Of a stretch of DNA of 49,681 nucleotides, positions 25,344 to 49,001 are shown piece after piece. The notes below the pieces were generated by a model, which saw nothing but the letters and a program-made list of their open reading frames with translations, did no database searches and was not told the origin of the DNA. The position numbers and the translations under genes were made by a program. Each line of letters opens with the position of its first letter. Position 1 is the first letter of the stretch. The stretch is from Methanobacteriota archaeon. GTDB lineage: Archaea; Thermoplasmatota; Thermoplasmata; RBG-16-68-12; JAJISG01. The stretch covers positions 1 through 49,681 of the forward strand of contig JAUVFR010000008.1 of NCBI GenBank assembly GCA_030594205.1, written 5' to 3'.

Positions 25344-26534
25344 GTGATTCATGAGTTCATCGTAAACGGCATCGCCCTGGGAAGCATCTTCGTCCTGGGG
25401 GCCGTGGGTCTTTCCCTCATCTACGGGGTGCGCAATTTCGCGAACTTTGCCCACGGGGACATCTTGACGCTCGGTGCCTACCTGGCGTTTACCGTCAACG
25501 TCATCTTCGCCTGGAATTGGGTCTCCGTGGCGCCCTCCATGGCCGTAGCCACCGTCCTCTTGGGGATCGCCGCCGCGGGGCTGGGGGGCGCCTTGGGGCT
25601 GCGCCTCTTCTTTCGAGCCCGAGGGGCGCCCCCCTCGCCGCGCCGCCGGGGCCTTCCCCTCCTCTTCCTCCTCGTGGGAATCCTCGCCCTCGGGATCTCC
25701 CTCCCGATTCTGAACCTGGTTCGCCTGGGGATCTCGGAGGTTGCCTTGCCCACCGGACTCCTCCTGTCCGGCGTGACGGCGATCATCGGGGCGGGCCTCG
25801 CCGGGGTCCTCTTCGAGCACAGCATCTTTCGTCACCTGCAGTACCGGGGACCCGTGCCCTCCCTTATCGCCTCCATCGGCCTGGCCTTCATCCTGCAGAA
25901 CGTCATCTCCGCCATCTACGGGACAGACCAACGCTTTTTCTCTGTTTCATCGGGGGTTGGGCTCGACGTGGGCGCCGGGATCGTGCTGACGATGGTGAAG
26001 CAGTACATGATCGTCATCGGCATCCTCCTCGTGGTGTTGCTGCATGTCGTCTTACGGTACACGAAGCTAGGGAAAGCCATGCGGGCCACCTCCGATAACC
26101 TCGACCTGGCCCGGGTCACGGGCATCAACGTCCGCTGGGTGATCATCTGGACCTGGGTCATCGGGGCCGGGTCTGCCGCAATCGGGGGCATCCTACTGGG
26201 TCTCAACGCGCAGGTGAAGCCCCTCATGGGGTTCGGCATCCTGCTCTTCATCTTTGCGGCGGTCATCCTCGGGGGCATCGGCTCGGCGTACGGAGCGCTC
26301 CTGGGCGGATTCGTGATCGGAATCACGAACGAGGTATCGAAGGCCCTTCTCTTTCGGGCAGGATTCGACACGGCGTGGTCCCCCGCTTTCCCTTTCGCGA
26401 TCATGGTCGCGATGCTCCTGATTCGTCCAGAGGGGCTCTTGGGTGGCGAGCCGTTGGTTCGATGGGGCGCCCTCCGTGCCTCCCTGTCCCGCTTCGCCCG
26501 ACGGATTCGGGGGCTTCGAGCGCCCTCGAGGTGA
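25344..26534 (+). CDS. livH: Branched-chain amino-acid-type ABC transporter permease, LivH-like
   Basis: A 396-residue inner-membrane permease of the hydrophobic amino acid (HAAT) ABC importer family. It begins with FIVNGIALGSIFVLGAVGLS and GVRNFANFAHGDILTLGAYL, both typical of LivH, and ends with the KALLFRAGF/IRPEGLLGG region. About nine or ten hydrophobic helices are visible. It has an extra Arg/Pro-rich loop near residues 93-110, longer than in Escherichia coli LivH (about 308 residues). GTG at 25344 is the start, with a GGTGAG ribosome site. It is the first gene of livHMGF; the livM ATG follows its stop after four bases. Confidence 0.93.
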   Translation: MIHEFIVNGIALGSIFVLGAVGLSLIYGVRNFANFAHGDILTLGAYLAFTVNVIFAWNWVSVAPSMAVATVLLGIAAAGLGGALGLRLFFRARGAPPSPRRRGLPLLFLLVGILALGISLPILNLVRLGISEVALPTGLLLSGVTAIIGAGLAGVLFEHSIFRHLQYRGPVPSLIASIGLAFILQNVISAIYGTDQRFFSVSSGVGLDVGAGIVLTMVKQYMIVIGILLVVLLHVVLRYTKLGKAMRATSDNLDLARVTGINVRWVIIWTWVIGAGSAAIGGILLGLNAQVKPLMGFGILLFIFAAVILGGIGSAYGALLGGFVIGITNEVSKALLFRAGFDTAWSPAFPFAIMVAMLLIRPEGLLGGEPLVRWGALRASLSRFARRIRGLRAPSR

Positions 26535-26538
26535 GACG

Positions 26539-27528
26539 ATGGTCGAGCTTGGCTTTCTCCGGGAAATCGTCTTCTTCATGAGCTTTCTCGGGATTTTCGC
26601 TCTGCTGGTCCTGGGCCTGAACCTTCAATGGGGATACACGGGCCTCTTCAACATCGGAGTCGCCGCCTTCTTCGCCGTCGGGGCCTACACGTCGGCCATC
26701 CTCATCACCCCAAACGTTCCCCCGTCGGATTTCTATCCAGGACACCTGGGTTTCGGCCTCCCCTGGGCCGTCGGGATCATCGGCGCGGTCCTCGTCGCCG
26801 CCGTGCTGGGATTCCTGATCGCCATCCCTACGGTGCGCCTCCGCGCGGACTACCTCGCCATCGCCACCCTCGGCCTTGCGGAGATCATTCGCCTCTCGCT
26901 GATTCAATCCGAATCCATCACTGCGGGAACGATTGGGCTGAGGAACATCCCCTCGCCCGTTATCGTGCCCGGCGATCCCTTCCTCACGAACGTGGCCTTC
27001 GCCGTCATCGTGGTTCTCGCCGTCGTCGTTCTGTACGTCTTCATCGAGTTCGTCGGGCGATCTCCATGGGGGAGGGTTCTGAAGGCGATTCGGGACGACG
27101 AGGATGCGGCCGTGGCCCTGGGAAAGAACGCCTTCAGCTACAAGGTGCAAGCCTTCGTACTGGGGGCCGCCATGATGGGTGCGGCCGGGGCGCTGTTTGG
27201 CTCCTTCCTCCATTTCATCGAGCCGCTCACCAGCTTCACCCCCATCGACACATTCTTCATCTGGGTCATGGTCATCTTGGGAGGGGCCGGGAATAACCGC
27301 GGGGTCCTCGTGGGAGCCTTCCTCGTCTGGGGCTTTCAGTTCTTGATCATTCGGACGCCGTTCCCGGATCTCGGCTTTGTGGACTTGGAGTCGAAGAAGG
27401 CCTTCCTTCAGCTGATCGCGCTGGGTCTGCTTGTGGTCCTTGTCATGCTCCTCCGGCCCAGGGGAATCCTGGGAGAGGAGAAGGTTATCTCCCGGGGCGT
27501 CCTTAAGGGAACCAAGAGGTCCACATGA
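26539..27528 (+). CDS. livM: Branched-chain amino-acid-type ABC transporter permease, LivM-like
   Basis: A 329-residue permease, partner of LivH in the membrane channel. It shows LGLNLQWGYTGLFNIGVAAF, the RADYLAIATLGLAEIIRLSL segment that marks LivM, the cytoplasmic GRVLKAIRDDEDAAVALGKN loop that contacts the ATPases, and a C-terminal LLRPRGILGEE. The frame is open from 26443, but ATG 26539 has a GAGGTGA ribosome site directly upstream and follows the livH stop by four bases. Its own TGA overlaps the livG ATG (ATGA), so the proteins are translationally coupled. Confidence 0.93.
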   Translation: MVELGFLREIVFFMSFLGIFALLVLGLNLQWGYTGLFNIGVAAFFAVGAYTSAILITPNVPPSDFYPGHLGFGLPWAVGIIGAVLVAAVLGFLIAIPTVRLRADYLAIATLGLAEIIRLSLIQSESITAGTIGLRNIPSPVIVPGDPFLTNVAFAVIVVLAVVVLYVFIEFVGRSPWGRVLKAIRDDEDAAVALGKNAFSYKVQAFVLGAAMMGAAGALFGSFLHFIEPLTSFTPIDTFFIWVMVILGGAGNNRGVLVGAFLVWGFQFLIIRTPFPDLGFVDLESKKAFLQLIALGLLVVLVMLLRPRGILGEEKVISRGVLKGTKRST

Positions 27529-28277
27529 CCCTTCGCATCAAGGACGTCAGCAAGCGATTCGGGGGGGTGCATGCGGTGGAAGAGTGCACCCTGGGCGTCC
27601 AAGACGGGACCATCACGGGATTGATTGGCCCGAACGGAGCCGGCAAGACGACTCTCTTCAACCTCATCACGGGGTTTCTGCACCCCGACGGGGGGGAAAT
27701 CCACCTTAACGGGGAGCGGCTGGACGGCTTGCCCGCCCACGCCACGGTGAGACGGGGGGTTGTCAAGACCTGGCAGATCCCGCGTGAATTTGAGAACATC
27801 ACGGTCCTGGAGAACCTCATGCTCGCGGCGAAGGACAACCCAGGGGAGAGCATCTGGAACGTCGTCTTCCGACCCTTTCGCGTCCGGAAGCGGGAGCGCG
27901 AGGTGCAGGAAAAGGCTCAAGAGATTCTCGAGTTTCTCGAGCTGGACCACCTCGCCACGGAACTCGCCGGTAACCTGTCCGGAGGGCAGAAGAAGCTCTT
28001 GGAACTCGGTCGGGCCCTGATGACGGATCCGACCCACCTCCTCCTGGACGAGCCCGTCGCCGGGGTGAACCGGGTGCTTGCCGAGAAGCTGCTGGATCGT
28101 CTGGACCAGCTTCGCGAGCAGGGGATGACCATCTTCCTCATCGAGCACGACATGGACGTCGTCATGAGTCGCTGCGATGTCGTCATCGCGATGCACAATG
28201 GCCGGAAGCTGGCCGAGGGGACTCCCACGGAGATCAAGGCCAACGACGACGTGATCGAGTCCTACCTCGGGGGCTAG
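27525..28277 (+). CDS. livG: Branched-chain amino-acid-type ABC transporter ATPase, LivG-like
   Basis: A 250-residue ATP-binding subunit. Walker A is GPNGAGKTT at residues 35-43, the ABC signature LSGGQKKLLELGRAL, Walker B HLLLDEPVAGV and the switch histidine in IEHDMDVV. The sequence between Walker A and the signature (VVKTWQIPREFENITVLENL) matches the LivG subgroup, which usually has FQ or TWQ at the Q-loop. It pairs with LivF to power the importer. The start overlaps livM by four bases, and livF starts two bases after its stop. Confidence 0.95.
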   Translation: MTLRIKDVSKRFGGVHAVEECTLGVQDGTITGLIGPNGAGKTTLFNLITGFLHPDGGEIHLNGERLDGLPAHATVRRGVVKTWQIPREFENITVLENLMLAAKDNPGESIWNVVFRPFRVRKREREVQEKAQEILEFLELDHLATELAGNLSGGQKKLLELGRALMTDPTHLLLDEPVAGVNRVLAEKLLDRLDQLREQGMTIFLIEHDMDVVMSRCDVVIAMHNGRKLAEGTPTEIKANDDVIESYLGG

Positions 28278-28279
28278 GG

Positions 28280-28987
28280 ATGCAGCCCCTCCTGAAGGCC
28301 GAGGCGATCCATTCCGGGTACGGCGACGTGGAAATCGTCCACAATGTCAGCGTGGTCGTGAACAAGGGCGAGCTCGTGACCATCATCGGGCCCAACGGCG
28401 CTGGGAAGTCCACGCTGATCAAGACCATTTTCGGCCTCTTAGCCCCCATGGCCGGCCGGATATGGTATCAAGGCCGGGACGTGACGGGGACGGAACCTGA
28501 CAAGCTGGTTCGGATGGGGCTCAGCTACGTCCCCCAGGTGGACAACGTGTTCCCCAGGCTGACGGTGATCGAAAACCTCGAGATGGGTGGCTTCGTGCGC
28601 GAGGGCGATCTGACGCCCCGCATCGACGTGGTCCTGGAGATGTTTCCCAGCCTGAAGGAAAAGGCCTCGGTCAGATCGCGCAATCTGAGCGGGGGCGAGA
28701 AGCAGATGGTGGCCTTGGGGAAGACCCTCATGCTCGATCCCGAGGTGATGCTCATCGACGAGCCCTCCGCCGGGCTGGCCCCAAACCTCGTGGAGGCCGT
28801 CCTCGAGAAGATTCGGGAGATCAACGAAGCGGGGACCGCCATCGTCATCGTCGAGCAGAACGCCCGGAAGGCCCTGTCCATGGCGCACCGAGGCTACGTG
28901 CTGGACATGGGGGAGACCAAGTACGAGGGGACGGGGGAGGACCTCCTGGCCGACCCCCGTGTGGGCCGGATGTACTTGGGCGGCTAA
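28280..28987 (+). CDS. livF: Branched-chain amino-acid-type ABC transporter ATPase, LivF-like
   Basis: A 235-residue ATP-binding subunit with Walker A GPNGAGKST (37-45), LSGGEKQMVALGKTLML signature, Walker B VMLIDEPSAGLAPNLV and IVIVEQNARKAL, where LivF proteins carry EQN in place of EHD. It is the last gene of the livHMGF operon. The stop overlaps the stop of the convergent binding-protein gene by four bases. Confidence 0.95.
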   Translation: MQPLLKAEAIHSGYGDVEIVHNVSVVVNKGELVTIIGPNGAGKSTLIKTIFGLLAPMAGRIWYQGRDVTGTEPDKLVRMGLSYVPQVDNVFPRLTVIENLEMGGFVREGDLTPRIDVVLEMFPSLKEKASVRSRNLSGGEKQMVALGKTLMLDPEVMLIDEPSAGLAPNLVEAVLEKIREINEAGTAIVIVEQNARKALSMAHRGYVLDMGETKYEGTGEDLLADPRVGRMYLGG

Positions 28988-30423
28988 GACCGAGCAACAG
29001 CGGCCTGCAGGGTCACGATGAAGCTAGGCTGGGCCTGGCTCACCGGTGCAGGTGGCGCCGCCTCCAGCAGGTCCTGCGTGATGACGTCCTCCTGGACGAA
29101 GGCGTCCGACTGGATGCTGAAGAACTCGTAGTCGCTTCCCGCTTCGCCCCACAGGTCGAAGTTGAGGCTTCCGGAGGCCCCCTCGAAGTCGATCTGTCTG
29201 CCCGCGGCCAGCTCAGTCTTCGCCTTCGCGAACTCACCGGGGAAGATCTTCGTCCCTGTCGGCGAGGAGACGGCGTACAGGTTGTCGCGAATCGTCGTGC
29301 CGTCGGCCGCCCCACCGCGCTCGATGGCGAGGGCGATCAGGTACACGGCGTCGTAGGTGTGCGCGTCGAACGGGAAGAGGTCCAGCCCGAAGAGCTCGTC
29401 CATCCGTGTCACGAAGTAGTCAAAGGATGCTCCCGCCGGCGGGAGGGGCGAGGTCCCTACAAACCCGTCTGTGTTGATCCCCTCGGTATCCAAGTCGGTC
29501 AAGAAGTCGGTGGACTTCAGGCCCTCGGACCACTGCCAGTCCCACGCCCAAGCGGGATTGGCCAGCCAATTCTTGTACATCGTTATGCCGTCCTCCGGAT
29601 ACGCGATCATGAGGACGGCTTCCGGGTTCGCGCTGGCCAGGAGCTGCAGATCGGAGGTGTAATCCGCCTGCTCCTCCGTGTAGTTGACCTGCGCGACGAT
29701 GGTGCCTTCGTACCCCCCACGGAAGGCGGCCGCGAACCCCTTTCCGTACGGGTTGTTCACGGCGATGATTCCCAACGTGTTCCAACCCCCGAATCCCGTG
29801 AAGTCCCCGTTCGCGATCATGGCGGCGGCCTTGCCCTGCAGTGCGTCGGAGGGAGCCGTCCGCCACCACCACCCTGGGTTCCCAAACGTGTCGGGAACCG
29901 GGTCGTCGGGACCGAGGAAGCCTCCCGCAACGAGCGATTCGTGTCGCTCGATTTCGAAGAGGGTGAAGAAGGGCGACGTGGAGGCCGGGCTTATCTGGAC
30001 TACGTTGTTCTCCATCGTCACGCCGCTTACAGCCTGAGACACCCCCGAGGACGCCGCGCCTACGATGGCGCCGACGCCGTCGGTTGCGACCAGTTTCGTT
30101 GCAACGTTAGCCCCGGCGATGGGTCGGGTCTGGCTGTCCTCGTGAATAAGTTCTAGGGGAAGGCCGATGACGCCTCCCGCGTCGTTGATCTCGCTCATTG
30201 CGAGATTGGCGGCATTCTGCATGCGTGGTCCGAAGTCGGAAAGCGCCCCGGTCACGGGGAGAATCGTTCCGACTTTCACGCTCGCGGCCGGCTGAAACAG
30301 CAGAGGAGCCGCGAAGATTGCGGCCACAACGACGACGACCGCAATAATCACGACGGCAATGGCAATCCATAGGCCACGGCCTGCACCTCCGGCTGGTGCT
30401 GGTGCCTGTGCTTCTCCTTCCAT
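28984..30423 (-). CDS. ABC transporter substrate-binding protein, LivJ/K-like, N-terminally anchored
   Basis: A 479-residue type I periplasmic-binding-fold protein of the leucine/isoleucine/valine-binding group (KVGTILPVTGALSDFGPRMQ, then ANLAMSEINDAGG). In place of a lipobox it has a short Pro/Ala/Gly-rich start and one long membrane helix (about residues 18-43), so it should be tethered to the outer face of the membrane. The pocket residues cannot be assigned by eye, so the ligand (branched-chain amino acid, amide, urea or other) is open. It is transcribed towards the liv operon from its own promoter. A strong GGAGGT ribosome site lies three bases before the ATG, so this message is leadered. 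Confidence 0.92.
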   Translation of the reverse strand: MEGEAQAPAPAGGAGRGLWIAIAVVIIAVVVVVAAIFAAPLLFQPAASVKVGTILPVTGALSDFGPRMQNAANLAMSEINDAGGVIGLPLELIHEDSQTRPIAGANVATKLVATDGVGAIVGAASSGVSQAVSGVTMENNVVQISPASTSPFFTLFEIERHESLVAGGFLGPDDPVPDTFGNPGWWWRTAPSDALQGKAAAMIANGDFTGFGGWNTLGIIAVNNPYGKGFAAAFRGGYEGTIVAQVNYTEEQADYTSDLQLLASANPEAVLMIAYPEDGITMYKNWLANPAWAWDWQWSEGLKSTDFLTDLDTEGINTDGFVGTSPLPPAGASFDYFVTRMDELFGLDLFPFDAHTYDAVYLIALAIERGGAADGTTIRDNLYAVSSPTGTKIFPGEFAKAKTELAAGRQIDFEGASGSLNFDLWGEAGSDYEFFSIQSDAFVQEDVITQDLLEAAPPAPVSQAQPSFIVTLQAAVARS

Positions 30424-37077: not shown

Positions 37078-38232
37078 TCAGCTGAGCACCTGCGTCCCCG
37101 GATAGAAGGCGTACCAGGCGAACCACATCACGTTGACGGCCGAGATGGGCGTAAGGGCGGTCCCCTGGAAGGAACCCTCGAGGCCGATCCCCTCCGGCGA
37201 CCAGAGCGTCCCGCTCTCCGCATCGAGGATGCGCCCCTCCTCGTGCTGGAAGGTCAGGGGGCTCCCCTCGACCTCCCGGCGGAAGACCCGGACCGCGTTC
37301 AGGTCCCCGTCCTGCAATGCCACGAGGGGGGTGCCGCTCAGAGCGACGTTCTTGACGCGGACGGCGTGAAACTCCTCCGCGGGGATCGCCAGCTGCTCAT
37401 CCCCGACCTTGACCCCGTACACGACCTTCTTGGGGGGGAACCGGTCGGAACGATTCATTACGTTGGGGAAGATGAGGCTGTCGTTCCGATAGTAGCCATG
37501 GGGGTCGGGGTTGTAGAGTCCGTAGGGGTCCCGATTGTAGTCCCGTAGGAATCCCGTCTCTGTCGTCAGGACCTCGGTGCCGGGGTGGCGCTGTCGCCAT
37601 CGGTCCCACGTGGTCCAGACCAATGGGACCTCTGCCAGGACGCTCGCGCATCGCTGGCCGTTGATGGCCGTTCCGAGGATCTGGGGCCAGTTGCTGTCGC
37701 TGGCCCGGTCGTACATGAGAAGGTTGCTGTTCACGAGCTGGCCCGATACCCCGAAGGTTTCCCCGTCCCCTCCAGTGGGCGGCCGGAAGGCGATCTGCGA
37801 CCCGGTCAGAGGGCAGTAGGTGATGGCGAGGTGCTGGCCGCTCGGGCGGTCGTTGACGATCTCGTGCCACACCAGGATGCGCTGAGGGTACGCCCTCTGG
37901 ACGCCCTGGTAATCGAGGCCGAAGACGATGTCGGTCGGCTTCAGGAAGTTGCTGGCCGCCTCCGCCGACATGAATCGAGGGCTGTCGACACTGGGGATGC
38001 CGTCCTTGGGTGGGCCCCCGCTGAGAATGTTGCGCTGGAAGGAGGCGAACTCTGTGCACGGCCCGGCCGGCTGGGTCCCGGTCCCTCCGCCGCTCGTCCC
38101 TCCCGCAAGGAGGCGGGCGAGGGCAGGACCCACGAGGACACCGACAAACGCTGCTCCCCCCAGGCCCAGCGCGAGTTTCACGAAGTTGCGCCTCGAGGGC
38201 GTTTCGGATGACGTGTCCTTGTCGGATGCCAT
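37078..38232 (-). CDS. DUF3179 protein with twin-arginine signal
   Basis: A 384-residue exported protein. The start has a Tat-type signal: SRRNFVKLALG with the twin arginines at residues 14-15, followed by a hydrophobic stretch to about residue 45. The body matches DUF3179: IVFGLDYQGVQRAYPQRILV, HEIVNDRPSGQHLAITYCPL (with the conserved single cysteine), and TETGFLRDYNRDPYG. Function of the family is unknown; Tat export suggests a folded, perhaps cofactor-binding protein outside the membrane. ATG 38232 has a TATA box (CTTAAATAG) about 38 nt upstream. First gene of the operon with the membrane protein and citrate synthase. Confidence 0.9.
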   Translation of the reverse strand: MASDKDTSSETPSRRNFVKLALGLGGAAFVGVLVGPALARLLAGGTSGGGTGTQPAGPCTEFASFQRNILSGGPPKDGIPSVDSPRFMSAEAASNFLKPTDIVFGLDYQGVQRAYPQRILVWHEIVNDRPSGQHLAITYCPLTGSQIAFRPPTGGDGETFGVSGQLVNSNLLMYDRASDSNWPQILGTAINGQRCASVLAEVPLVWTTWDRWRQRHPGTEVLTTETGFLRDYNRDPYGLYNPDPHGYYRNDSLIFPNVMNRSDRFPPKKVVYGVKVGDEQLAIPAEEFHAVRVKNVALSGTPLVALQDGDLNAVRVFRREVEGSPLTFQHEEGRILDAESGTLWSPEGIGLEGSFQGTALTPISAVNVMWFAWYAFYPGTQVLS

Positions 38233-41193: not shown

Positions 41194-43743
41194 TCAATCG
41201 TGGGCGGGGATCAGTGCTCGCAACGGTACGGCGGCCACCTTACGGTACACGCGCTCCGGAGGGAGGCTGCGGCCGTTCCACGAAAGGAGGCGGTCGACGG
41301 GGACGCCAAGGAGCTCCTCGTTCCTCTGGAGATAGGGAAGGATGAGTTCCCAGTCCGCTGCCGAGAGCTCTGCGAACTCCCCACCGTTGAGCTGGTTCTC
41401 CTCCACCGCGCCCTCGGGATCGCGGACGTACAAGGCGCCCCCGGAGGCGAGGGAGAAGAGGTTTCCCCCCTCGTAGGGCGTCTCGCGGTCGACGAGGTAG
41501 CCCCTCTGGTCCACATTGAGGCCGTTGATGATGACGAAGCCCCCTCCCTTGAGGGGGTCCCCGGCCATGAAGGACTCCGCGAGGTAGTCCAAGGCCGTGC
41601 CGTTGATGACAACCCGCGGTCGACCGACGGCGTTGATGAGGGGTCGTCCCGCGGCGTCGCCTAGGATGTACGCTTCGCCCCCCTTCGCCCCGTACATGAA
41701 GGTCTGGCCGACATCCCCGTGAACGACGAGGCGGCCCGTTTTCATAACCTGGGCCACCTGGTCCTGGGCCGATCCGTGGACGTGGATTTCCGATCCATCC
41801 AGTCCGGAGGCCAGGTAGTCGCCGGAGCTTCCATACACGTGGATCTCGGCCAGGGAGTCAGGGCCGAGACCGCAGCCGATGAAACGCTGGCCCCGGTTCC
41901 GAAACACCCGCATGCGCCGCCAGCCGAGCTCATGTGCCTGCACGAGGAAGCGCGACCCGCTATCCTCATTTTCCGCGGGGAAGCCGGCCAGGTCCACGAG
42001 GAGGGTCGAGTCCGGCTCGGTGGGTGGGTCCAGGAGCTTCCGTCCACCCCAATCGACCTTCACGAAAGCCTTCCCGTCCCCGGGCGGACCAACGTCCAGC
42101 AACGCTTCGATGGCATCGCTGATGTCCGCCCGGGCCCGGCTCCGCCTCCATCCCTCCATCGGGTACGGGCGGTCCAGGAGGAGGGTGAGGGAACGCAGGG
42201 CGAGGCGCCAGTCCCGGTCGGACCGCTGTCCGCGCTTTCGTAATCCATGAACCAACCCGGCGGCCTCGGCCGGGCCACTCTTGCGAAGGTAGCCCAGGGC
42301 CTGCTTCGCGATCGCTCCGGGATCCTCCCCCTCGAGGGCAGGAAGGGTTCCTCCGTTGGCCGCGACCCTCGTCGTCACGGGCGCGTCGGAGACCGCGACG
42401 GGGCTCCCGAACTTGTCGGTGCAAGTGAGTTCGAGGCCTTCCGAACCTTCCCGCAAGGAGAAAATGAAGGAACCCCCGTTGGAGTAGCTCCCCCCCCGCG
42501 CATTCCAGTAGCGGTCCGCCACCTTCCAGATCCGCGGGTCCTCCTCGTGCACGCTTCGCAGGAAGGCGTCGATGGCTTGCTTCTCCGAGGCCACCATGCC
42601 GAGAGAGACGTCCCCACTCTGGAGGGCGAAGACCTGCGGCCGGAGCATGGAGGTGTCGGTGATTCCGAGGAGCTCCATCTCCCCCCCCGGCTGCCGCCCT
42701 GCGACGATGAAGAACCACGGGCCGTCGGGGGACCCATGGATGTGGGTGGCCTGGATGCGCCGGTAGGCCTCCTGCTTCCTCTCCGGGAGCATCGTGAAAT
42801 CCCGCTCCGTGGTGGGGGCCATGGCCTCGATGACGTACTCCAGCGGATACCGGTAGGTCCGCCGTAGGAGGTCGAACAGGAGGACCGAAACCTCCGTGTC
42901 CGTGAGGAAGAGGGGGACGATGTTCCGCTGCCGCAGGTACTTCGTGACCCGGGCGTAGTTCGCGAAGTCCCCGTTGTGGACGAGCGCCTCGTGAAGTCCG
43001 ACGAAGGGGTGGGCCCCGCCCGGATGCCAGACCTTCCCTCTCGTGGGATACCGTTGGTGCCCGATCCAGACGTGGGCCGTGATGTCCTCCAGGCGGTAGT
43101 AGTGGACGACCTGTTCCGCGTACCCCACGATCTTCAGGACCATCAGGTCCTTCCCGTGGGACAAGACGAACGCACGCTGCTCCCCGAGGGAGGCGTAGAA
43201 GGCCGTGTTCAACCGGTACGAGTTGCGGTAGACGAACTCGTCCTCCAGGTCGCCCGGCGGCAGGTCCTCCAGGTCGGCCTCCTTGGCGAAGGTCCGAAGA
43301 CGATTCTCGCGGGGACGGACGAAGTAGCGGACCACCTCCGGCGGTTGGACCTCGAGCCCCGGGACTTCCTCCATCTCCCGGGTCGGCAGGGCCTCGGTGT
43401 GGTCCACGTCGAAGGGACCATCGATATACTCCGCTTCCACCTCCTCCCGGCAAGAGGGGTCCAGGTAGGCCACCAAGAGGAGGTAGTCTCGGGCGAGGAC
43501 TTCGGGGGAGACCCCCATCTGTTCGGGATCCATCCCCACGGCGGCGATGCCGCCGCCCTTCCCGTTCCCCCGGTTGTGCATCTGGTGCATGGGGGGGAAC
43601 AGGTGGCGGCCCGCGATGGGCTTCGTGGAGGCGAGCCCCAGGACGCCGCAGCCGCCCTCCGCCTCCCGCTTCTTCAGGCCCGAGGGGAGCCCGGCGACCA
43701 GGTCCTTCCGGGCCGCGAGGACGCGCCGGACCGCATCCCTCAC
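41194..43743 (-). CDS. Glutamine amidotransferase (class II) fused to GXGXG domain, glutamate-synthase-like
   Basis: An 849-residue fusion. The N-terminal part is a class II (Ntn) glutaminase like GltB domain 1: EGGCGVLG puts the predicted nucleophile cysteine at residue 32, behind a prosequence-like segment, with GHQRYPTRGKVWHPGGAHPF and ALVHNGDFANY. The C-terminal part is the GltB-type GXGXG beta-helix (VYGSSGDYLASGLDGSEIHV, then GDVGQTFMYGAKGGEAYILG). The FMN domain that lies between them in bacterial GltB is missing; it is supplied by separate genes upstream. The likely role is to hydrolyse glutamine and pass ammonia to the FMN subunit. The start at 43743 overlaps the FMN gene stop by four bases. 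Confidence 0.9.
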   Translation of the reverse strand: MRDAVRRVLAARKDLVAGLPSGLKKREAEGGCGVLGLASTKPIAGRHLFPPMHQMHNRGNGKGGGIAAVGMDPEQMGVSPEVLARDYLLLVAYLDPSCREEVEAEYIDGPFDVDHTEALPTREMEEVPGLEVQPPEVVRYFVRPRENRLRTFAKEADLEDLPPGDLEDEFVYRNSYRLNTAFYASLGEQRAFVLSHGKDLMVLKIVGYAEQVVHYYRLEDITAHVWIGHQRYPTRGKVWHPGGAHPFVGLHEALVHNGDFANYARVTKYLRQRNIVPLFLTDTEVSVLLFDLLRRTYRYPLEYVIEAMAPTTERDFTMLPERKQEAYRRIQATHIHGSPDGPWFFIVAGRQPGGEMELLGITDTSMLRPQVFALQSGDVSLGMVASEKQAIDAFLRSVHEEDPRIWKVADRYWNARGGSYSNGGSFIFSLREGSEGLELTCTDKFGSPVAVSDAPVTTRVAANGGTLPALEGEDPGAIAKQALGYLRKSGPAEAAGLVHGLRKRGQRSDRDWRLALRSLTLLLDRPYPMEGWRRSRARADISDAIEALLDVGPPGDGKAFVKVDWGGRKLLDPPTEPDSTLLVDLAGFPAENEDSGSRFLVQAHELGWRRMRVFRNRGQRFIGCGLGPDSLAEIHVYGSSGDYLASGLDGSEIHVHGSAQDQVAQVMKTGRLVVHGDVGQTFMYGAKGGEAYILGDAAGRPLINAVGRPRVVINGTALDYLAESFMAGDPLKGGGFVIINGLNVDQRGYLVDRETPYEGGNLFSLASGGALYVRDPEGAVEENQLNGGEFAELSAADWELILPYLQRNEELLGVPVDRLLSWNGRSLPPERVYRKVAAVPLRALIPAHD

Positions 43744-45218
43744 AGGATGGCCCCCTCGTACCGCAACAGGTCATAGCGGCCGCGCAGGTCCCGGAAGCTC
43801 TCCAGGCCCAGGCGCGTCAGCAGGTCCACCCACTGGAGGCGCCAGGCGTGGTACATGTTGTAGATGCGTTGGGCCCCGAAGTCCGCGGGGATGAGGGGCA
43901 CGAGTTCCGGGTCCGTGGTGGCGATGCCATGCTGGCAGCCCCGGCCCCGCTCGCAGTTCCCGCAGCGGGTGCAGTTCAACGCCACGAGCTCCGCCGTCCC
44001 GATGACGCAGCCGTCCGCCCCGAGGGCGATGGCCTTGGCCACGTCATAGGCCGTCCGGAGGCCGCCGCTCGCCATGAGGACGATCTCGTCCCGGATGCCC
44101 TCGCCCTCCAAGAAGCGGTGGACCTTGGGGATGGCGAACTCGATGGGCATGGCGATGTTCTTCTTCGCGATGTCCGGCGCCGCCCCCGTGCCGCCGTAGC
44201 CGCCGTCCAGGTTCAGGATGTTCGTTCCCGCGTAGTAGGAACCCACGGCCACCATGTCCACGTCCACGGGTGTGGACACCTTCACCGAGATGAGCGCGTC
44301 CGGGTTCACGGACCGAAGCCAGTCCACGTGCTTCTTGTGATCCTCCACGCTGTACACGCTGTGGAAGGGGAAGGGAGAGAAGAGGGAGGTCTTCTCGACC
44401 GCCTCCCGGATCCGGGCGACGTCGGGGGTGTTCTTGTCCGCCAGGAGGTGCCCCCCCAGCCCGGGCTTCGCCCCTTGGGCGTATTTGATCTCCACGATCG
44501 GCGCCCGCTGGATGCTCGCCTCGGAGACGCCGAAGAGGCCTGTGGCCACCTGGGTGATAACGTGGTCCGCATACGGGATGAGGGCCTCCGGGTAGCCGCC
44601 CTCCCCCGTGCTGCAGAAGGTGCCCCATGCCTTGGCCGCACGGATGCGACTCAGCATGACGTTGAGGCTGACGCTGCCGTAGGACATCGCGGCGCCGTAG
44701 ATGGGGATCGGGGTCCGGATGCGGGGGCCCCACGGCCGGCGGTTGAGGTCCAGGGAGGTGTCGACCTCCTCCACGGGTTCGGGGTCCTCCGGGAAGACGA
44801 AGTGCAGGCGGTCGAAGCCGCCTCCGGAGTCCCCGATTCGGGACTCGATGCCCGGCGGGGGCAGCTGGCCCGTCTCCGACATGTACCACGTGGACGTGAT
44901 GAGGTCCGCGGGCCACCGGTCGTCGCCGAGGTCCTCGTAGTAGGCGTTCTCCCCAACCCGGATCGCGTCCGTCGGGCAGTTGTCGACACAGAAGAAGGAT
45001 TGGCCCTCGCAGTTGTGGGGGCCGATGCAGTTGGAGCTCTTCGGGGCGGAGATGTGGACGAGGCCGGGCTTCATCTCATAGACGTCGTAGGGGCAGACCT
45101 GGGCGCAGATCCCGCAGTCGATGCAGGCGTCCGGGAGGATTTCCACCGCGTACTTGTTCACCGTCCGCCAGATGTAGGAGGGGGCGCTCACCACGCGCAG
45201 GGGTTCGGCCTCAACCAT
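43740..45218 (-). CDS. Glutamate synthase FMN subunit with ferredoxin domain
   Basis: A 492-residue protein. The N-terminal ferredoxin-like part has CIDCGICAQVC (C32, C35, C38, C42) and a second, oddly spaced set C64-x5-C70-x6-C77-x3-C81. The rest is the FMN-binding barrel of glutamate synthase domain 2: GAAMSYGSVSLNVMLSRIRA, FCSTGEGGYPEALIPY, IVEIKYAQGAKPGLGGHLLA, NLDGGYGGTGAAPDIAKKN, and near the C-terminus NCTRCGNCERGRGCQHGIAT, the equivalent of the 3Fe-4S cysteine motif. All parts for a working synthase site appear present. The frame is open much further upstream (to 45902), but ATG 45218 overlaps the previous gene by eight bases and is the sensible start. Confidence 0.92.
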   Translation of the reverse strand: MVEAEPLRVVSAPSYIWRTVNKYAVEILPDACIDCGICAQVCPYDVYEMKPGLVHISAPKSSNCIGPHNCEGQSFFCVDNCPTDAIRVGENAYYEDLGDDRWPADLITSTWYMSETGQLPPPGIESRIGDSGGGFDRLHFVFPEDPEPVEEVDTSLDLNRRPWGPRIRTPIPIYGAAMSYGSVSLNVMLSRIRAAKAWGTFCSTGEGGYPEALIPYADHVITQVATGLFGVSEASIQRAPIVEIKYAQGAKPGLGGHLLADKNTPDVARIREAVEKTSLFSPFPFHSVYSVEDHKKHVDWLRSVNPDALISVKVSTPVDVDMVAVGSYYAGTNILNLDGGYGGTGAAPDIAKKNIAMPIEFAIPKVHRFLEGEGIRDEIVLMASGGLRTAYDVAKAIALGADGCVIGTAELVALNCTRCGNCERGRGCQHGIATTDPELVPLIPADFGAQRIYNMYHAWRLQWVDLLTRLGLESFRDLRGRYDLLRYEGAIL

Positions 45219-46545
45219 GGCCGTTCCCTCCCGGGAAGAGGGCCATGAACTCCCGTTCGAGGTCCTCGTGGAACATGGCGCGGCCGATCTCGCCCGCCAT
45301 GCGACGGGCGTCCCGAATGCCCATGGCCCCCATGATCTCCAGGAGCTGGTCGCGGCAGGCGTTGGCCCAGTTCGTGATGCGCTGGACCCCCCACTGCGTT
45401 CTGATGGGGGACGGAAGGCCCCCCTCCGGGTTCCCGTTCCAGCCGAGGGCGACCAGGTAGGTGGTATCCAGCCCGACGGCGTCGGCCCCGCAGAGGAGGG
45501 CCTTGGGCACGTGTTCCGAGGCCACGACGCCGCCGCTGGCCAGGATGGTGACCTCGTCTCGGAGCCCCTCCTCCACCAGGTACTGATCCAGATCACGCAG
45601 GACCGGGGCGATGAAGCGGGTCTCCTCCGGCCCGATCTCACGTCCGTGAGGATCCGCGTAGAGGTGAAGGACGTCCACGCCCGCGCGGATGCGGTCGGCG
45701 TACGCCTCCCGCGCGTCGAACCGGAGGGGCATTCGCAGGAAGGCGACCAGGTCGGGGCGGGCCTCCTTGATCGCGTGGTACGTGGCCAGGCCGTCTCCCG
45801 CATCATCGACCTCCACGGCCCGCGCCCCGTCCAGGAGGTCCCAATCCACCTCCTCCTCCGCCGCGAATCGTGGGATGACGTGGCCGTTCTCCCCGCGCAC
45901 ATCGGAGGCCTCGAGGATGGCGTAGGTCCCCAGCTCTGCGGCGGCGCGCGCCACGAGGGGCTCGAGGCCCCGCCCGATCGCCCCCGGGGGATTCAGCAGA
46001 AAGGGAACGGGGATTTCCAGGATGGGAGGGAAGGGCTCGTCGTCCTCCCAGGTCAGGTAGGGCGGCTTCCGCCCCAGGTCCACCGCGGTCGAGATGTACT
46101 CCCGCCCGTGGATGCCGTCTCGGGTAGGTCGGACGATCTCCGACATGTCCGTCCAGATCGCGTCGAATCCCGGCTGCACGAAGGGACCCCGATACCCCGC
46201 GCCCGAGACGGGAATGCGGCCGCTCGCCGCCTCGTCCCAGATCCGGGTGACCACCCGCGGTCGGAAGGTTCCCTTTCCGATGGCCCTGAAGTCCGGATGG
46301 ACCCCGATGTCGAGGACCCCGACCGGGCACTCCATGACGCACCGCTGGCATCCCACACACAAGTCGTCCTCCGGGAGGGCCATCAGGCGGGCGTCCGCCT
46401 CCTGCTTCAGGTGGACGCCGTAGGGGCAGGCGGTCACGCAGGTGCCGCAGTGGATGCAGTCCTCGCCCCGGATGACCTGGAACCGGCGGGGGGCCTCCTT
46501 GGGCGGGGATGCGAGCTGGATGGGGATCTCGTACCGCTCATACAT
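45211..46545 (-). CDS. Second glutamate-synthase-like FMN protein with ferredoxin domain, lacking the 3Fe-4S cysteines
   Basis: A 444-residue paralogue of the next gene. It has two regular [4Fe-4S] motifs, CIHCGTCVTAC (C30-C40) and CVGCQRCVMEC (C63-C73), then a TIM-barrel domain with ILASGGVVASEHVPKALLCG and GADAVGLDTTYLVALGWNGN, as in glutamate synthase domain 2. The cysteine-rich C-terminal cluster motif of true synthases is absent; the equivalent region reads RITNWANACRDQLLEIMGAM. The glycine-rich GGYGGTGA loop is also not obvious. It may be an electron-transfer or structural subunit, or have a different substrate. It overlaps its neighbours by eight bases on each side. Confidence 0.85.
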   Translation of the reverse strand: MYERYEIPIQLASPPKEAPRRFQVIRGEDCIHCGTCVTACPYGVHLKQEADARLMALPEDDLCVGCQRCVMECPVGVLDIGVHPDFRAIGKGTFRPRVVTRIWDEAASGRIPVSGAGYRGPFVQPGFDAIWTDMSEIVRPTRDGIHGREYISTAVDLGRKPPYLTWEDDEPFPPILEIPVPFLLNPPGAIGRGLEPLVARAAAELGTYAILEASDVRGENGHVIPRFAAEEEVDWDLLDGARAVEVDDAGDGLATYHAIKEARPDLVAFLRMPLRFDAREAYADRIRAGVDVLHLYADPHGREIGPEETRFIAPVLRDLDQYLVEEGLRDEVTILASGGVVASEHVPKALLCGADAVGLDTTYLVALGWNGNPEGGLPSPIRTQWGVQRITNWANACRDQLLEIMGAMGIRDARRMAGEIGRAMFHEDLEREFMALFPGGNGHG

Positions 46546-48448
46546 CGGGACGCCTCCCCCGCGGCGTCTGGACCGGGTAGGCCAGGCCGCGGTTGACCAG
46601 GTCGTGGTACTCCTCCTCCGCCTCCACCCGCTTCACGAACGCCTCGATCTGCTCCCGGGGCTTCCCGTATCGGCGGGCGACCAGGTTCTCCAGGCGGTCC
46701 CATACGGGAACGAGGTCGATGGCGCTCTGGCAGACGTTGGAGCAGGCGGCGCAGTGGATGCAATCGAAGATCTGTCGGGCCCCCTCCCCCTCCATCGCCT
46801 CCCCCCGGGCCATCTTCTCCATGACCAGGAGCTTCCCCCGCGCCGTCACGAGCTCCGTCTTGTCTGCGAGGTAGGCCGGGCAGACCGTGATGCAGGCCCC
46901 GCAGTGGGCGCACTCGGCGGCGGAACGAAGGTCCTCGTCCGTGGGTCCCTCCAGACCGGGGGGCGCGAGGTCGTGCAGCATCGGGGCGGAGGGCTGACCC
47001 AACGGGTTGCGCGGGAGGAGCCGGCCGGCGGCTCGAGCGAGGAGGGGGGCGAGGAAAAAGGAGGAAATCGACCAACGGGGAAGGAAGGGATCCGCCCCCG
47101 GGTCGAAGGCCTTGCCGGGGTTGAGGAGGTTCTTGGGGTCGACTTGCCGCTTGTAGGCTCGGTAGGCCCGCATGTCCCGTCTGGAGTAGCGGGTCCGGAG
47201 GAACGGGCGGTTCCAGATGCCGACGCCGTAGGCGCGCCCGCCGGCTCGGATGCCGGCCTCATGCAGGAGGAGCACGAGGGCGATGTGGGGGAGATACCGC
47301 TCCAGGTCCCGCGGGTCCGTGAGAAAGGAGGAGATCAGGAGGGCCTCCGTGGGGCTCACCAGGTGGCCCTCGTGGGCGAGGGAGGCGTCGAAGCGCGCGG
47401 CCAAGCCCTCGGCTCTCGCCAAGTAGGCGGGAATGGATGTCAGCGGCAGGAGGGTCTCCGCCCCCAGGATGCCCGGGCCGAGCCGCTTCACCTGCATGGG
47501 GAAGAAGCGGTGTTCCCAGAGGAAGGAGGCCTGATACGGCTCCGCCAGGACGCCTTCGACCGAGCCGGCGTCCTTCGGCTTTCCCTCCCCCTCTTCCGTG
47601 ACCACGAGGAGGCTGTGGGCCTCGTCCAGCACCTCTCGCTCTTGCAGGGCATTGAGCTCGCCCAGGCGGTGCGGGTCGTAATAGGTCATGTGGACCGGGT
47701 CCCAGGTCTCGGCGATGGACCGGGCGTCCATCAGGGCCTCCTCCGGGTCGGGGTAGGTGAAGAGGAGGGGGCGTTGTGCGGCGGGTCGCGGCCGCACGCT
47801 CAGCCCGACCTGGGCCACCACCCCCATCTGGCCCTCCGTGTGGACGTAGTAGCGGAAGGCCTCGTCTCCGCCCGCGAGGGTCCGTGTCCCGTTGAAATCC
47901 ACGACCCGGATCCACGCGATCTGGGAGGCGAAGGAGCCGAAGCCGAGGCTGTAAAGGCCGTATCCCCCCGTGTTGAGCCACCCCGCCACGGTGGACCACC
48001 AACTCGTGGGGTGAGATCGGAGGGCGTACCCGTTGCCCGCGAGGAACTGGTCGAGGTCGGCCCATCGGACGCCGCCCTCCACGGTGACCACGCCCGCCTC
48101 CGGGTCGAAGGCCACGATCGTCCGGAGGAGGGACAGGTCCAGGACGATGCCGCCGCGGACCGGGAGGGCGCCGCCATAGGGGGAGGAGGCGGCCCCCCTC
48201 GGCACCACGGGCAGGTGGTGCTCCTCCGCGTGCCGAAGGACCCGGACGATCTCCTCCTCGCTTCGGGGCTGGGCCACCATGGCGACGGGCTTTCGGAGAA
48301 ACAGCCGACGGAGCTCCGCCGGCACTTCGGCCTGATCGAGGCTGTAGATCTCCCGCTCGAGGGCAGAATCGAGGAGTCGGACGCCCTCTAGACCCCCGCC
48401 CCTCACGAGTCCACGACCCCCCACATCACGCAGACGATTGTAATGCAA
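46538..48448 (-). CDS. FAD-linked oxidase with two [4Fe-4S] clusters (GlcD/GlcF-like)
   Basis: A 636-residue fusion. Residues ~45-235 are a PCMH-type FAD-binding domain (VVPRGAASSPYGGALPVRGG, VTVEGGVRWADLDQFLAGNG), then a substrate domain like that of glycolate or D-lactate oxidases, and at about 510-590 a ferredoxin-type region with two C-x2-C-x2-C-x3-C motifs (CAHCGACITVC, CIHCAACSNVC). Such proteins oxidise 2-hydroxy acids and pass electrons to iron-sulfur partners; the actual substrate cannot be read. It heads the operon, which has no GltD-like NAD(P)H subunit, so it is a candidate electron donor. Start TTG 48448 lies about 24 nt from the TATA box; GTG 48424 is an alternative. Confidence 0.88.
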   Translation of the reverse strand: MHYNRLRDVGGRGLVRGGGLEGVRLLDSALEREIYSLDQAEVPAELRRLFLRKPVAMVAQPRSEEEIVRVLRHAEEHHLPVVPRGAASSPYGGALPVRGGIVLDLSLLRTIVAFDPEAGVVTVEGGVRWADLDQFLAGNGYALRSHPTSWWSTVAGWLNTGGYGLYSLGFGSFASQIAWIRVVDFNGTRTLAGGDEAFRYYVHTEGQMGVVAQVGLSVRPRPAAQRPLLFTYPDPEEALMDARSIAETWDPVHMTYYDPHRLGELNALQEREVLDEAHSLLVVTEEGEGKPKDAGSVEGVLAEPYQASFLWEHRFFPMQVKRLGPGILGAETLLPLTSIPAYLARAEGLAARFDASLAHEGHLVSPTEALLISSFLTDPRDLERYLPHIALVLLLHEAGIRAGGRAYGVGIWNRPFLRTRYSRRDMRAYRAYKRQVDPKNLLNPGKAFDPGADPFLPRWSISSFFLAPLLARAAGRLLPRNPLGQPSAPMLHDLAPPGLEGPTDEDLRSAAECAHCGACITVCPAYLADKTELVTARGKLLVMEKMARGEAMEGEGARQIFDCIHCAACSNVCQSAIDLVPVWDRLENLVARRYGKPREQIEAFVKRVEAEEEYHDLVNRGLAYPVQTPRGRRPDV

Positions 48449-48467: not shown

Positions 48468-48476
48468 GATATAAGG
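48468..48476 (-). promoter_or_regulatory. TATA box of the glutamate-synthase-like operon
   Basis: Minus-strand CCTTATATC centred about 24 nt from the TTG at 48448, in the divergent region shared with the winged-helix regulator. Confidence 0.65.
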
Positions 48477-48614
48477 TTTATCCGAGGAATGTTGGACGAG
48501 CATCTAGAAAAAGTGCATTCCTATCGAACATTCGTCCTTCGCCTCTCAGGTCTGATATCGGCGGCGACACGGTTAAGTCGCGGCAGCCCGACACAGGCGG
48601 CCTGGAGGATCGCT

Positions 48615-49001
48615 TTGGGTACCTCAGAGACGGAGGAAACCGCCCCGGGGCAGGACCCCGAAGGGCCTCCCGCGCCCGCCCGCTTTCCCAGCTTTCTCCT
48701 GGCCCTCTTCGACGAGATGAACGTCCAGATTCTGCAAACCACGGCGGAGCGCTACATGCCGGTCAAGGAGATCGCGAAGACGGCGCAACTGCCCCTTCGT
48801 GCATGTTACCGCCGCGTCAAGACCATGCATCGGGAGGGTCTATTGCGGCTCGAGCAATCGGACCCCGAGGGGCGCGGCCGACCTTCGACGCGGTACAAGT
48901 CCGCCCTGGGGGACGTCACCGTGGTTCTCACGGGGAACGAGTACAAAGTGAGCCTCGTCTGGCCCGAGGTGAGCTTCAACCTCTCCGTCGATTTCTCCTA
49001 G
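48615..49001 (+). CDS. Winged-helix transcriptional regulator
   Basis: About 128 residues. The helix-turn-helix is in ERYMPVKEIAKTAQLPLRAC with recognition helix YRRVKTMHREGLL, followed by a wing (GRGRPSTRYKSAL) and a C-terminal beta hairpin. It resembles small archaeal ArsR/MarR-like repressors. The frame is open from ATG 48489, but the first ~42 codons have poor codon use; a TATA-like GGTTAAG (48571-48577), GGAGG (48604-48608) and TTG at 48615 with good spacing fit better. It is transcribed away from the glutamate-synthase-like operon and is its most likely regulator (inference from position). Confidence 0.78.
   Translation: MGTSETEETAPGQDPEGPPAPARFPSFLLALFDEMNVQILQTTAERYMPVKEIAKTAQLPLRACYRRVKTMHREGLLRLEQSDPEGRGRPSTRYKSALGDVTVVLTGNEYKVSLVWPEVSFNLSVDFS

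Follow-up and report, generated by a model that had tools for sequence, protein, structure and literature searches.

Glutamine synthetase (GS) is treated as near-universal, and canonical glutamate synthase (GltS) is regarded as effectively one-way. In the GltBD and ferredoxin-dependent (Fd-GltS) enzymes (1ea0, 6s6s, 1ofd), a class II glutaminase with an N-terminal Cys nucleophile is combined with a GXGXG domain and with an FMN domain carrying GAKPG, SPxPxH and GGTGA motifs and an Fe-S motif, and electrons arrive via [4Fe-4S] clusters. The split archaeal GltB1/B2/B3 proteins and the enzymes of the N-methylglutamate synthase type (loci L009 and L010) have the GATase, ferredoxin plus FMN, and GXGXG parts clustered, with GATase and GXGXG on separate genes. 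A GltS core with a different electron-input subunit is described for the putative F420-dependent FGltS(I/II) and the ANME FrhB10 clusters; in the portions of these sources available to us, that subunit is an F420H2 dehydrogenase subunit, and no displacement of GS is reported (PMC3448663, PMC9012536).

The operon described here has the domains and motifs listed for GltBD and Fd-GltS, clustered as in the split enzymes, and [4Fe-4S] clusters would likewise carry its electrons; as in the F420-dependent systems, the core is paired with a different, presumed electron-input subunit, of GlcD type here and of MetF or ETF type in other lineages. Unlike in GltBD and Fd-GltS, the domains are split and re-fused: the glutaminase is joined to GXGXG, and the FMN domain stands separately with its own ferredoxin. 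There is furthermore no recognised central domain, no GltD in the operon and an altered Fe-S motif, while an extra pseudo-barrel subunit (P0003), also lacking in the split enzymes, is present.

Layout of the operon

The window, that is, the whole stretch of DNA analysed, comprises 49,681 nucleotides. The four-gene operon with overlaps of 4-8 bases that an earlier note had recognised was found in place: four ORFs, all on the minus strand, occupy 41194-48448 in the order P0004-P0003-P0002-P0001, successive ORFs overlap by 8, 8 and 4 bases (P0004/P0003, P0003/P0002 and P0002/P0001), and their Pfam domains agree with that description. P0004 (636 aa, TTG start; 46538..48448) is an FAD-PCMH (VAO/GlcD-like) flavoprotein with a C-terminal 2x[4Fe-4S] part, the redox-exchange module. 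P0003 (444 aa; 45211..46545) consists of a 2x[4Fe-4S] ferredoxin domain and a degenerate FMN-type TIM barrel, and P0002 (492 aa; 43740..45218) of a 2x[4Fe-4S] ferredoxin domain (residues 24-90) and a glutamate synthase FMN domain (residues 170-472), both according to Pfam and hhalign. P0001 (849 aa; 41194..43743) contains, by Pfam and motifs, a class II glutaminase domain, a variable linker and a GXGXG domain.

A TATA-box-like sequence seen by eye, AACCTTATAT (48469..48478, minus strand), lies about 20-25 bases 5' of the P0004 TTG start and is a candidate promoter of a leaderless operon mRNA. The divergent 170-aa ORF beyond it (48489..49001, plus strand) looks winged-helix-like by eye and may encode a regulator; it gave zero Pfam or NCBIfam matches. 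An Lrp/AsnC regulator is divergent from the homologous operons in loci L025, L052 and L058. Two long plus-strand ORFs that run antisense to the operon (43848-45248 and 46442-48391) are most likely high-GC mirror frames and not genes. As for the absence of GltD, this holds within the operon itself, but a GltD-like gene stands alone elsewhere in the genome, unlinked, on contig C19, and scores below the GltA cut-off.

Glutaminase and barrel subunits

P0001 matched GATase_6 and GXGXG on one ORF, which bears out the fusion previously read from the sequence. Its GXGXG beta-helix domain spans residues 618-783 (41395..41892, minus strand; PF01493, E=3.1e-12). The catalytic Cys is residue 32, after a 31-residue leader (codon 43648..43650, minus strand); it is the presumed N-terminal nucleophile after leader removal, the EGG|CGV junction being invariant in 27/27. 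The motifs EGGCGV, RYPTxG, SPDGPWFFI and GITDxxMLRPQVF were present in 27/27 sequences, and HNGDFxNY and TDTEV in 26/27. Judged by these motifs, the class II glutaminase site is intact and is accompanied by the GXGXG domain.

P0002 matched a ferredoxin domain and the full Glu_synthase domain (PF01645, E=7e-87), aligned to the GltB FMN domain at 100% by hhalign, and retained the motifs GEGGxP, YAQGAKPG and KVSTP in 27/27 aligned sequences. The earlier note had assigned it an FMN, a 3Fe-4S and a ferredoxin part; the first and the last stand, whereas the cysteine motif is C-x2-C-x2-C-x5-C and not a plain three-cysteine one. This motif, CTRCGNCERGRGC (residues 416-428; 43935..43973, minus strand), corresponds to the [3Fe-4S] motif of GltS, with Cys at GltS-equivalent spacing in 27/27 and an additional Cys in 26/27, and could hold either a [3Fe-4S] or a [4Fe-4S] cluster.

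P0003 gave a dicluster ferredoxin match and a partial Glu_synthase match, and matched the GltB FMN domain at 96% (hhalign). Foldseek with its model, which is confident only in part, retrieved FMN-barrel enzymes and IMPDH. P0003 had been taken for a second FMN-like ferredoxin protein; the ferredoxin and the FMN-type barrel are there, but the FMN-domain signature motifs seen in P0002 are lost, and the barrel carries an invariant motif of its own, TDMSEIVRPTRDGIHGREY. The idea that P0003 might correspond to the central domain of GltS was rejected, because hhalign aligned it with the FMN domain (96%) and found no similarity to the central segment.

The operon thus has the glutaminase (class II, with its Cys nucleophile and motifs for Gln binding), the FMN (alpha/beta)8 domain with its signature motifs and the GXGXG domain of glutamate synthases. 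None of the three core proteins had an hhalign match to the central segment of E. coli GltB, which lies between the glutaminase and FMN domains. Split archaeal GltS are not known to have this domain either, and its absence is therefore read as a departure from the bacterial GltB layout, not from GltS-type chemistry. Domains and motifs hence agree with a complex of the glutamate synthase type in which a GlcD-like flavoprotein takes the position of GltD, as first proposed. P0002 nevertheless branches deeply, its QGAKPGxGGxL motif shows E->L and Q->H changes, its KVSTP is clade-specific, and its identity to archaeal GltB2-type and N-methylglutamate synthase-type proteins is low (about 30%). These features would suit an acceptor of glutamine nitrogen different from 2-oxoglutarate, served by another reductive amination or amidotransfer with an indirect link to GS. 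We consider such an acceptor unlikely, as the nitrogen-assimilation neighbourhoods and the exchange with GS described below point to the Gln/Glu node.

The FAD module

P0004 comprises an FAD_binding_4 (PCMH) domain (residues 56-188; 47885..48283; E=2.5e-32), an FAD-oxidase_C domain (residues 222-446; 47111..47785) and a 4Fe-4S dicluster with two [4Fe-4S] motifs (residues 510-578; 46715..46921), all on the minus strand and assigned by Pfam. Its FAD-PCMH plus FAD-oxidase_C architecture is that of the FAD-dependent 2-hydroxyacid dehydrogenases GlcDF, LctD and D-2-hydroxyglutarate dehydrogenase (D-2-HGDH), its Fe-S domain resembles that of GlcF/LdhH-type partners, and LctD is among its best relatives of known structure. 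An AlphaFold model of P0004 from three sequences had a mean pLDDT of 45 and was set aside.

This GlcD layout, with the LctD relationship, speaks for a glutamate synthase whose GlcD-like subunit draws electrons from a 2-hydroxy acid such as lactate or glycolate, the electron source suggested at first. The active site argues against it. The metal-binding and catalytic His/Glu motif of these dehydrogenases is lost in P0004 and its homologues, [AP]Y[GS] standing in FAD-oxidase_C where EHG is expected. The check took in four residues, His434, His441, Glu475 and His476 (human D-2-HGDH numbering). The His434 equivalent is retained in 9/10 aligned homologues, whereas the other three, which E. coli GlcD shows when aligned with them, are absent in 10/10. 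His441, Glu475 and His476 are each essential, and they are strictly conserved in D-LDH and GlcD (PMC7801405). In other lineages, moreover, MetF or ETF replaces the FAD subunit. A synthase driven by 2-hydroxy acids is hence highly improbable and was rejected.

Exchange of the redox module

The core, formed by the last three genes (FD2-FMN-GLN), keeps its gene order across Thermoplasmatota as well as in several bacterial phyla, with catalytic motifs intact. The expected co-occurrence of all four genes was confirmed by the FAD gene lying directly 5' of the core in 12 further genomes; since the core order also recurs in related loci of several phyla, the arrangement is not due to chance. The redox module differs by lineage: GlcD-like FAD in the window, MvhD-MetV-MetF or ETF elsewhere, or none, the Poseidoniales-like versions having no dedicated redox gene. 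The module is thus exchangeable. Two observations go beyond the earlier view of the locus: several modules, among them the FAD one, can replace each other, and core and GS are anti-correlated.

In bacteria, glnA lies 5' of the core in loci L027 and L029-L031, and PII and glnD lie 3' of it in L027 and L031; proA-proB-like genes are found near the core in three archaea of family f23. The bacterial core with the MetF module and glnA alongside likely runs in the ordinary reductive direction.

Exchange of the core with glutamine synthetase

Among 390 Thermoplasmatota genomes, GS (PF00120) was absent in 24/32 core carriers and in 27/358 non-carriers; the Fisher p of 1e-17 overstates the evidence, since the count is of incomplete MAGs and relatives do not make independent observations. 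With a sensitive protein search, GSII was recovered in 7/7 controls but in none of 28 operon-bearing GS-less genomes, so detection failure was rejected. The Poseidoniales-like family f52 has zero genomes with both GS and core, and both states occur inside five genera.

We regard it as very doubtful that this anti-correlation was produced artificially by phylogeny or assembly, or by GS genes missing from incomplete MAGs. It is true that 20 of the 24 GS-less carriers fall in one family and that all are MAGs. However, the two states alternate within those five genera, completeness of operon-bearing GS-less genomes reaches 97% in some, the core without GS is seen also in f1, f5, f8, f33 and f44, and the GSII locus itself was assembled with the core there instead.

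In the genus pairs compared, the position and orientation of the core on the chromosome are those of the type II GS gene (GlnII) in the relative. In genus g125, DAO-NUDIX-GSII-MFS-OppF-OppD corresponds to DAO-GLN-FMN-FD2-MFS-OppF-OppD, and a similar exchange in place was observed in g110 and g117. In f33, AsnC-GSII corresponds to AsnC-FD2-FMN-GLN. Mutual exclusion with GS and occupation of its locus thus both hold within f52 and f33. The two systems are unrelated in sequence, and GlnII is ATP-dependent, whereas the analysis of the core revealed no ATP-binding domain. The operon-negative locus matches the DAO-nudix-type II GS gene set recorded for MGII (PMC6741140); our search of the literature available to us found no paper on the operon or its exchange with GS.

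GS and core occur together in eight archaeal carriers (f23, f43, f53) and in all MetF-type bacteria, so the core is not a universal GS substitute. In the window's genome, the genome search did not find GS, and glutamine-using enzymes are retained. Class I Gln-dependent GATases are about as numerous in operon-bearing genomes as in their GS-bearing relatives.

Proposed function

On balance, the product of the operon is probably a divergent glutamate-synthase-type complex of modular build that takes the slot of GS, and we infer that it fills this slot in GS-less archaea such as that of the window. Electrons would pass between FAD (P0004), the [4Fe-4S] clusters of P0004, P0003 and P0002, and FMN, where 2-iminoglutarate and glutamate would interconvert; a channel would carry ammonia towards the glutaminase Cys or away from it.

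For the GS-less archaea, the oxidative direction (2 Glu + oxidised acceptor -> Gln + 2-oxoglutarate, no ATP) seems slightly likelier, and we favour it only tentatively. The complex could then be a redox-driven, ATP-independent glutamine synthase, that is, a glutamate synthase reversed, standing in for GS in Poseidoniales-like archaea and the window's lineage, which we find plausible but doubtful. One glutamate would be oxidised at FMN, its ammonia would travel to the glutaminase Cys and a second glutamate would be amidated, while the electrons would exit via the exchangeable module and be taken up by ETF, a quinone or a similar acceptor of mid or high potential. By our own estimate, the (2-oxoglutarate + Gln)/(2 Glu) couple lies near -50 mV from textbook potentials; assumed cellular concentrations would shift it to around -100 to -160 mV. 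Hence, menaquinone, ETF, ubiquinone or O2 as acceptor would make glutamine formation downhill, whereas NAD(P) or ferredoxin would make it uphill. Since the core yielded no ATP-using domain, the drive for glutamine formation would have to come entirely from a redox partner whose potential is high enough.

The reductive direction, in which glutamate is formed from acquired glutamine, is likewise possible in these archaea. The complex might, with a comparable and still modest chance, be a reductive glutamate synthase with an unusual donor: GS-less carriers would import glutamine or glutamine-rich peptides and turn the surplus, with 2-oxoglutarate, into glutamate, and the shared locus would reflect a common glutamine-responsive regulator, not function. 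Consistent with this, every GltS motif is kept, the bacterial relatives adjoin glnA, PII and glnD, Lrp/AsnC regulators adjoin both GSII and core in f33, the f52 locus is flanked by OppD/OppF-like genes for ABC-transporter ATPases, and the stand-alone GltD-like protein of the window's genome could supply electrons. A reductive synthase leaves unexplained, however, why GS and core do not coexist in f52 and are swapped in place within genera, and a glutamate-forming enzyme would be of little use to a cell that has GDH and cannot make glutamine. GS-less cells could obtain glutamine from peptides.

Meaning for nitrogen assimilation

Found often where GS is missing and sometimes at its place, the complex may represent an unrecognised route to glutamine. 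It suggests glutamate synthase wired to mid-potential partners (GlcD-like FAD, ETF, methylene-THF reductase), not only to NADPH or ferredoxin, and offers a coherent reading for genes annotated 'glutamate synthase-related' and 'FAD-binding oxidoreductase'. The takeover of the GS locus in archaea, seemingly including abundant marine ones, would mean either a second, possibly redox-powered glutamine route or glutamine auxotrophy hidden in a large group of organisms, and either outcome would alter the annotation and modelling of nitrogen assimilation for these organisms.

Results

The four open reading frames described in the earlier note were recovered on the minus strand, with overlaps of 8, 8 and 4 bases. 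According to Pfam, P0004 carries FAD_binding_4, FAD-oxidase_C and 4Fe-4S dicluster domains, P0003 a dicluster ferredoxin domain and a weak Glu_synthase match, P0002 a ferredoxin domain and a strong Glu_synthase match, and P0001 GXGXG and GATase_6. In the genome of the window, G000 (a MAG of 1.54 Mb, 94% complete), PF01645 matched P0002 and P0003 only. Of the FMN barrel, P0003 retains just the late portion, and it carries an invariant motif of its own, TDMSEIVRPTRDGIHGREY; P0003 aligned with the FMN domain of the glutamate synthase (GltS) subunit GltB and gave no alignment with the GltB central domain. Its partial, weak structural model groups with FMN-barrel/IMPDH folds. At the pseudo-barrel end (residues 360-385), most bacterial and f8/f23 homologues carry a C-x2-C-x2-C-type cluster motif, which is absent from the versions of the window, G013 and the Poseidoniales-like family f52. 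The window also encodes an M6-type secreted peptidase of 888 aa (6144-8810) and a DUF3179 protein whose start is twin-arginine-like (37078-38232).

Homologues in the order P0003, P0002, P0001 (the core) were found in Thermoplasmatota (phylum inferred), Aminicenantes, Dehalococcoidia, Planctomycetota and bacteria labelled Deltaproteobacteria/Desulfobacca/NaphS2. P0001 homologues occur in 32 of the 390 sampled genomes of the phylum (16 of 156 genera). All 27 homologues compared share the glutaminase motifs EGGCGV, RYPTxG, SPDGPWFFI and GITDxxMLRPQVF and the FMN motifs GEGGxP, YAQGAKPG and KVSTP; two further glutaminase motifs, HNGDFxNY and TDTEV, are kept in 26. Because the glutaminase motifs are so conserved, the residue after EGG in P0001 is a good candidate for the N-terminal nucleophile once the leader of about 30 residues is removed. 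Genome G375 (Poseidoniales-like) has two core copies on different contigs (L068, L067), each flanked by D-amino-acid oxidase (DAO) and MFS genes, which may reflect a strain mixture in the MAG.

The full four-gene order recurs, with a P0004 homologue upstream of the core in twelve other genomes (ten Thermoplasmatota, two Aminicenantes). MvhD-MetV-MetF takes this position in Dehalococcoidia and two Deltaproteobacteria, and MvhD-MetV in a third Deltaproteobacteria genome; MetF has an operating potential of about -200 mV (PMC8760232). In a planctomycete (L026:6569-17753) the core lies between MvhD-MetF and HdrC-HdrB-HdrA-NuoF-like genes (Hdr and NuoF named by eye), and thus looks to sit inside a methylene-THF reductase/Hdr electron-transfer cluster. 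G097 has EtfB and EtfA after the core. Family f52 has no redox module; its P0002 has lost the ferredoxin domain and its P0003 has lost it in part. Judged from these gene arrangements, one redox module can be exchanged for another. GlcD-like and ETF partners are likewise mid-potential, and with MetF they suggest a core suited to mid-potential partners, not NADPH.

The earlier note had proposed a synthase driven by 2-hydroxy-acid oxidation. Human D-2-HGDH binds metal and substrate through His434, His441, Glu475 and His476; none of the four is dispensable, and D-LDH and GlcD conserve them strictly (PMC7801405). E. coli GlcD reads HAGDGNMH and EHGIG in the alignment with the P0004 family, in which all ten aligned members have lost the second His and replaced EH with [AP]Y. 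The proposal is thus not supported: the fold of P0004 is GlcD-like, yet three of these four metal/catalytic residues are lost.

Glutamine synthetase (GS) was not detected in the G000 MAG by PF00120 or type II GS (GSII) protein searches; GDH is retained, as are class I GATase matches, a marker of glutamine-using enzymes. By PF00120, the 390 MAG-type genomes comprised 8 with operon and GS, 24 with the operon only, 331 with GS only and 27 with neither (p = 1e-17, descriptive only, as related genomes are not independent). None of 28 operon-bearing GS-less genomes matched the GSII protein query, to which all seven controls responded. Family f52 has 20 genomes with the core, 34 with GS and none with both, and five of its genera hold both states; its GS is type II (best match NF041605, below that model's cut-off). 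The pattern extends to f8, f1, f33 (g77) and f44 (g134). It also holds in f5, where genus g9 has the operon and no GS, and genus g6 has GS and no P0003 relative better than ferredoxin level.

G001 (94% complete), from the family of the window genome, lacks the operon, with only weak ferredoxin-level matches to P0003, and gave no GS match, GSII query included. The weak PF00120 match in f11 (L081, G041) stems from a GS of about 728 aa, apparently a long enzyme of GSIII type. A branched-chain amino acid-type ABC transporter cluster in the window (25344-30423; permeases, ATPases, periplasmic binding protein) possibly serves amino-acid import in this GS-less genome.

In the related genomes compared, core (FD2-FMN-GLN, for P0003-P0002-P0001) and GSII tend to occupy the same chromosomal place. 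In g125 (signs, strands) the GS version reads DAO+ NUDIX+ GSII- MFS+ h123- OppF- OppD- and the core version DAO+ GLN- FMN- FD2- MFS+ h123- OppF- OppD-, NUDIX being a nudix hydrolase. The pairs are GSII+ DAO- versus FD2+ FMN+ GLN+ DAO- in g110 and AsnC- GSII+ versus AsnC- FD2+ FMN+ GLN+ in f33. A DAO neighbour is common to both versions on one side in g117, and flanks are shared only in part in g154. We call f52 Poseidoniales-like because its GS locus matches one described independently for Marine Group II, in which a eukaryote-like type II GS accompanies D-amino-acid oxidase and a nudix hydrolase (PMC6741140). In the GLN tree, f52 is sister to f33 and its sequences cluster mostly by genus; the core therefore looks old in f52 and was probably exchanged with GSII repeatedly, each exchange possibly having run either way.

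Bacterial neighbours include glnA upstream of the core, or of the MvhD-MetV(-MetF) module preceding it (L027, L029, L030, L031), PII and GlnD downstream (L027, L031; GlnD by eye) and, beyond PII/GlnD in L031, a canonical GltB start (by eye). Three f23 archaea have proA- and proB-like genes nearby, and in L025, L052 and L058 an Lrp/AsnC-type regulator is oriented divergently from the core. Together, these neighbours place the core at the glutamine/glutamate node.

Discussion

The operon shares its domains with GltS and differs in domain fusion, the pseudo-barrel subunit and the redox partner. Non-NADPH partners for GltS have already been proposed, for F420-dependent GltS (PMC3448663) and ANME FrhB10 clusters (PMC9012536). 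Neither the operon nor its exchange with GS was described in the literature searched, whose scope left out most subscription journals. Most likely, the complex couples a glutaminase to ammonia transfer and to FMN-based redox chemistry acting on 2-oxoglutarate/glutamate.

We estimate the potential of the couple (2-oxoglutarate + Gln)/(2 Glu) at about -50 mV from textbook values, and at -100 to -160 mV at assumed pools. By this estimate menaquinone, ETF or ubiquinone could drive glutamine formation, whereas NAD(P) and ferredoxin could not. An electron sink is plausible in G000, which encodes ETF and has a membrane CCG/Fe-S protein adjoining GDH. At this locus (L079, C64:72900-78000), archaeal GDH adjoins a membrane-bound TfrB/LdhH/GlpC-like CCG/Fe-S protein and EtfB-EtfA, possibly an ETF-to-quinone route beside glutamate dehydrogenase. 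A separate GltD, which the earlier note had counted against its reading, does have a counterpart in G000, a stand-alone GltD/NfnB-like flavoprotein of 471 aa with a Fer4_20 domain (L078, C19:6245-7660), but it is unlinked to the operon and has no obvious adjoining partner; an NADPH route to the core may thus exist.

In GS-bearing bacteria, the core probably runs the usual reductive glutamate synthesis. Reductive use of acquired glutamine is nearly as likely in the GS-less archaea as the oxidative reading, and would agree with the conservative chemistry of GltS, but the one-for-one, in-place swap with GSII leans slightly the other way. Putative oxidative glutamine formation by the core, with menaquinone, ETF or ubiquinone as possible driver, is slightly favoured in the GS-less archaea.
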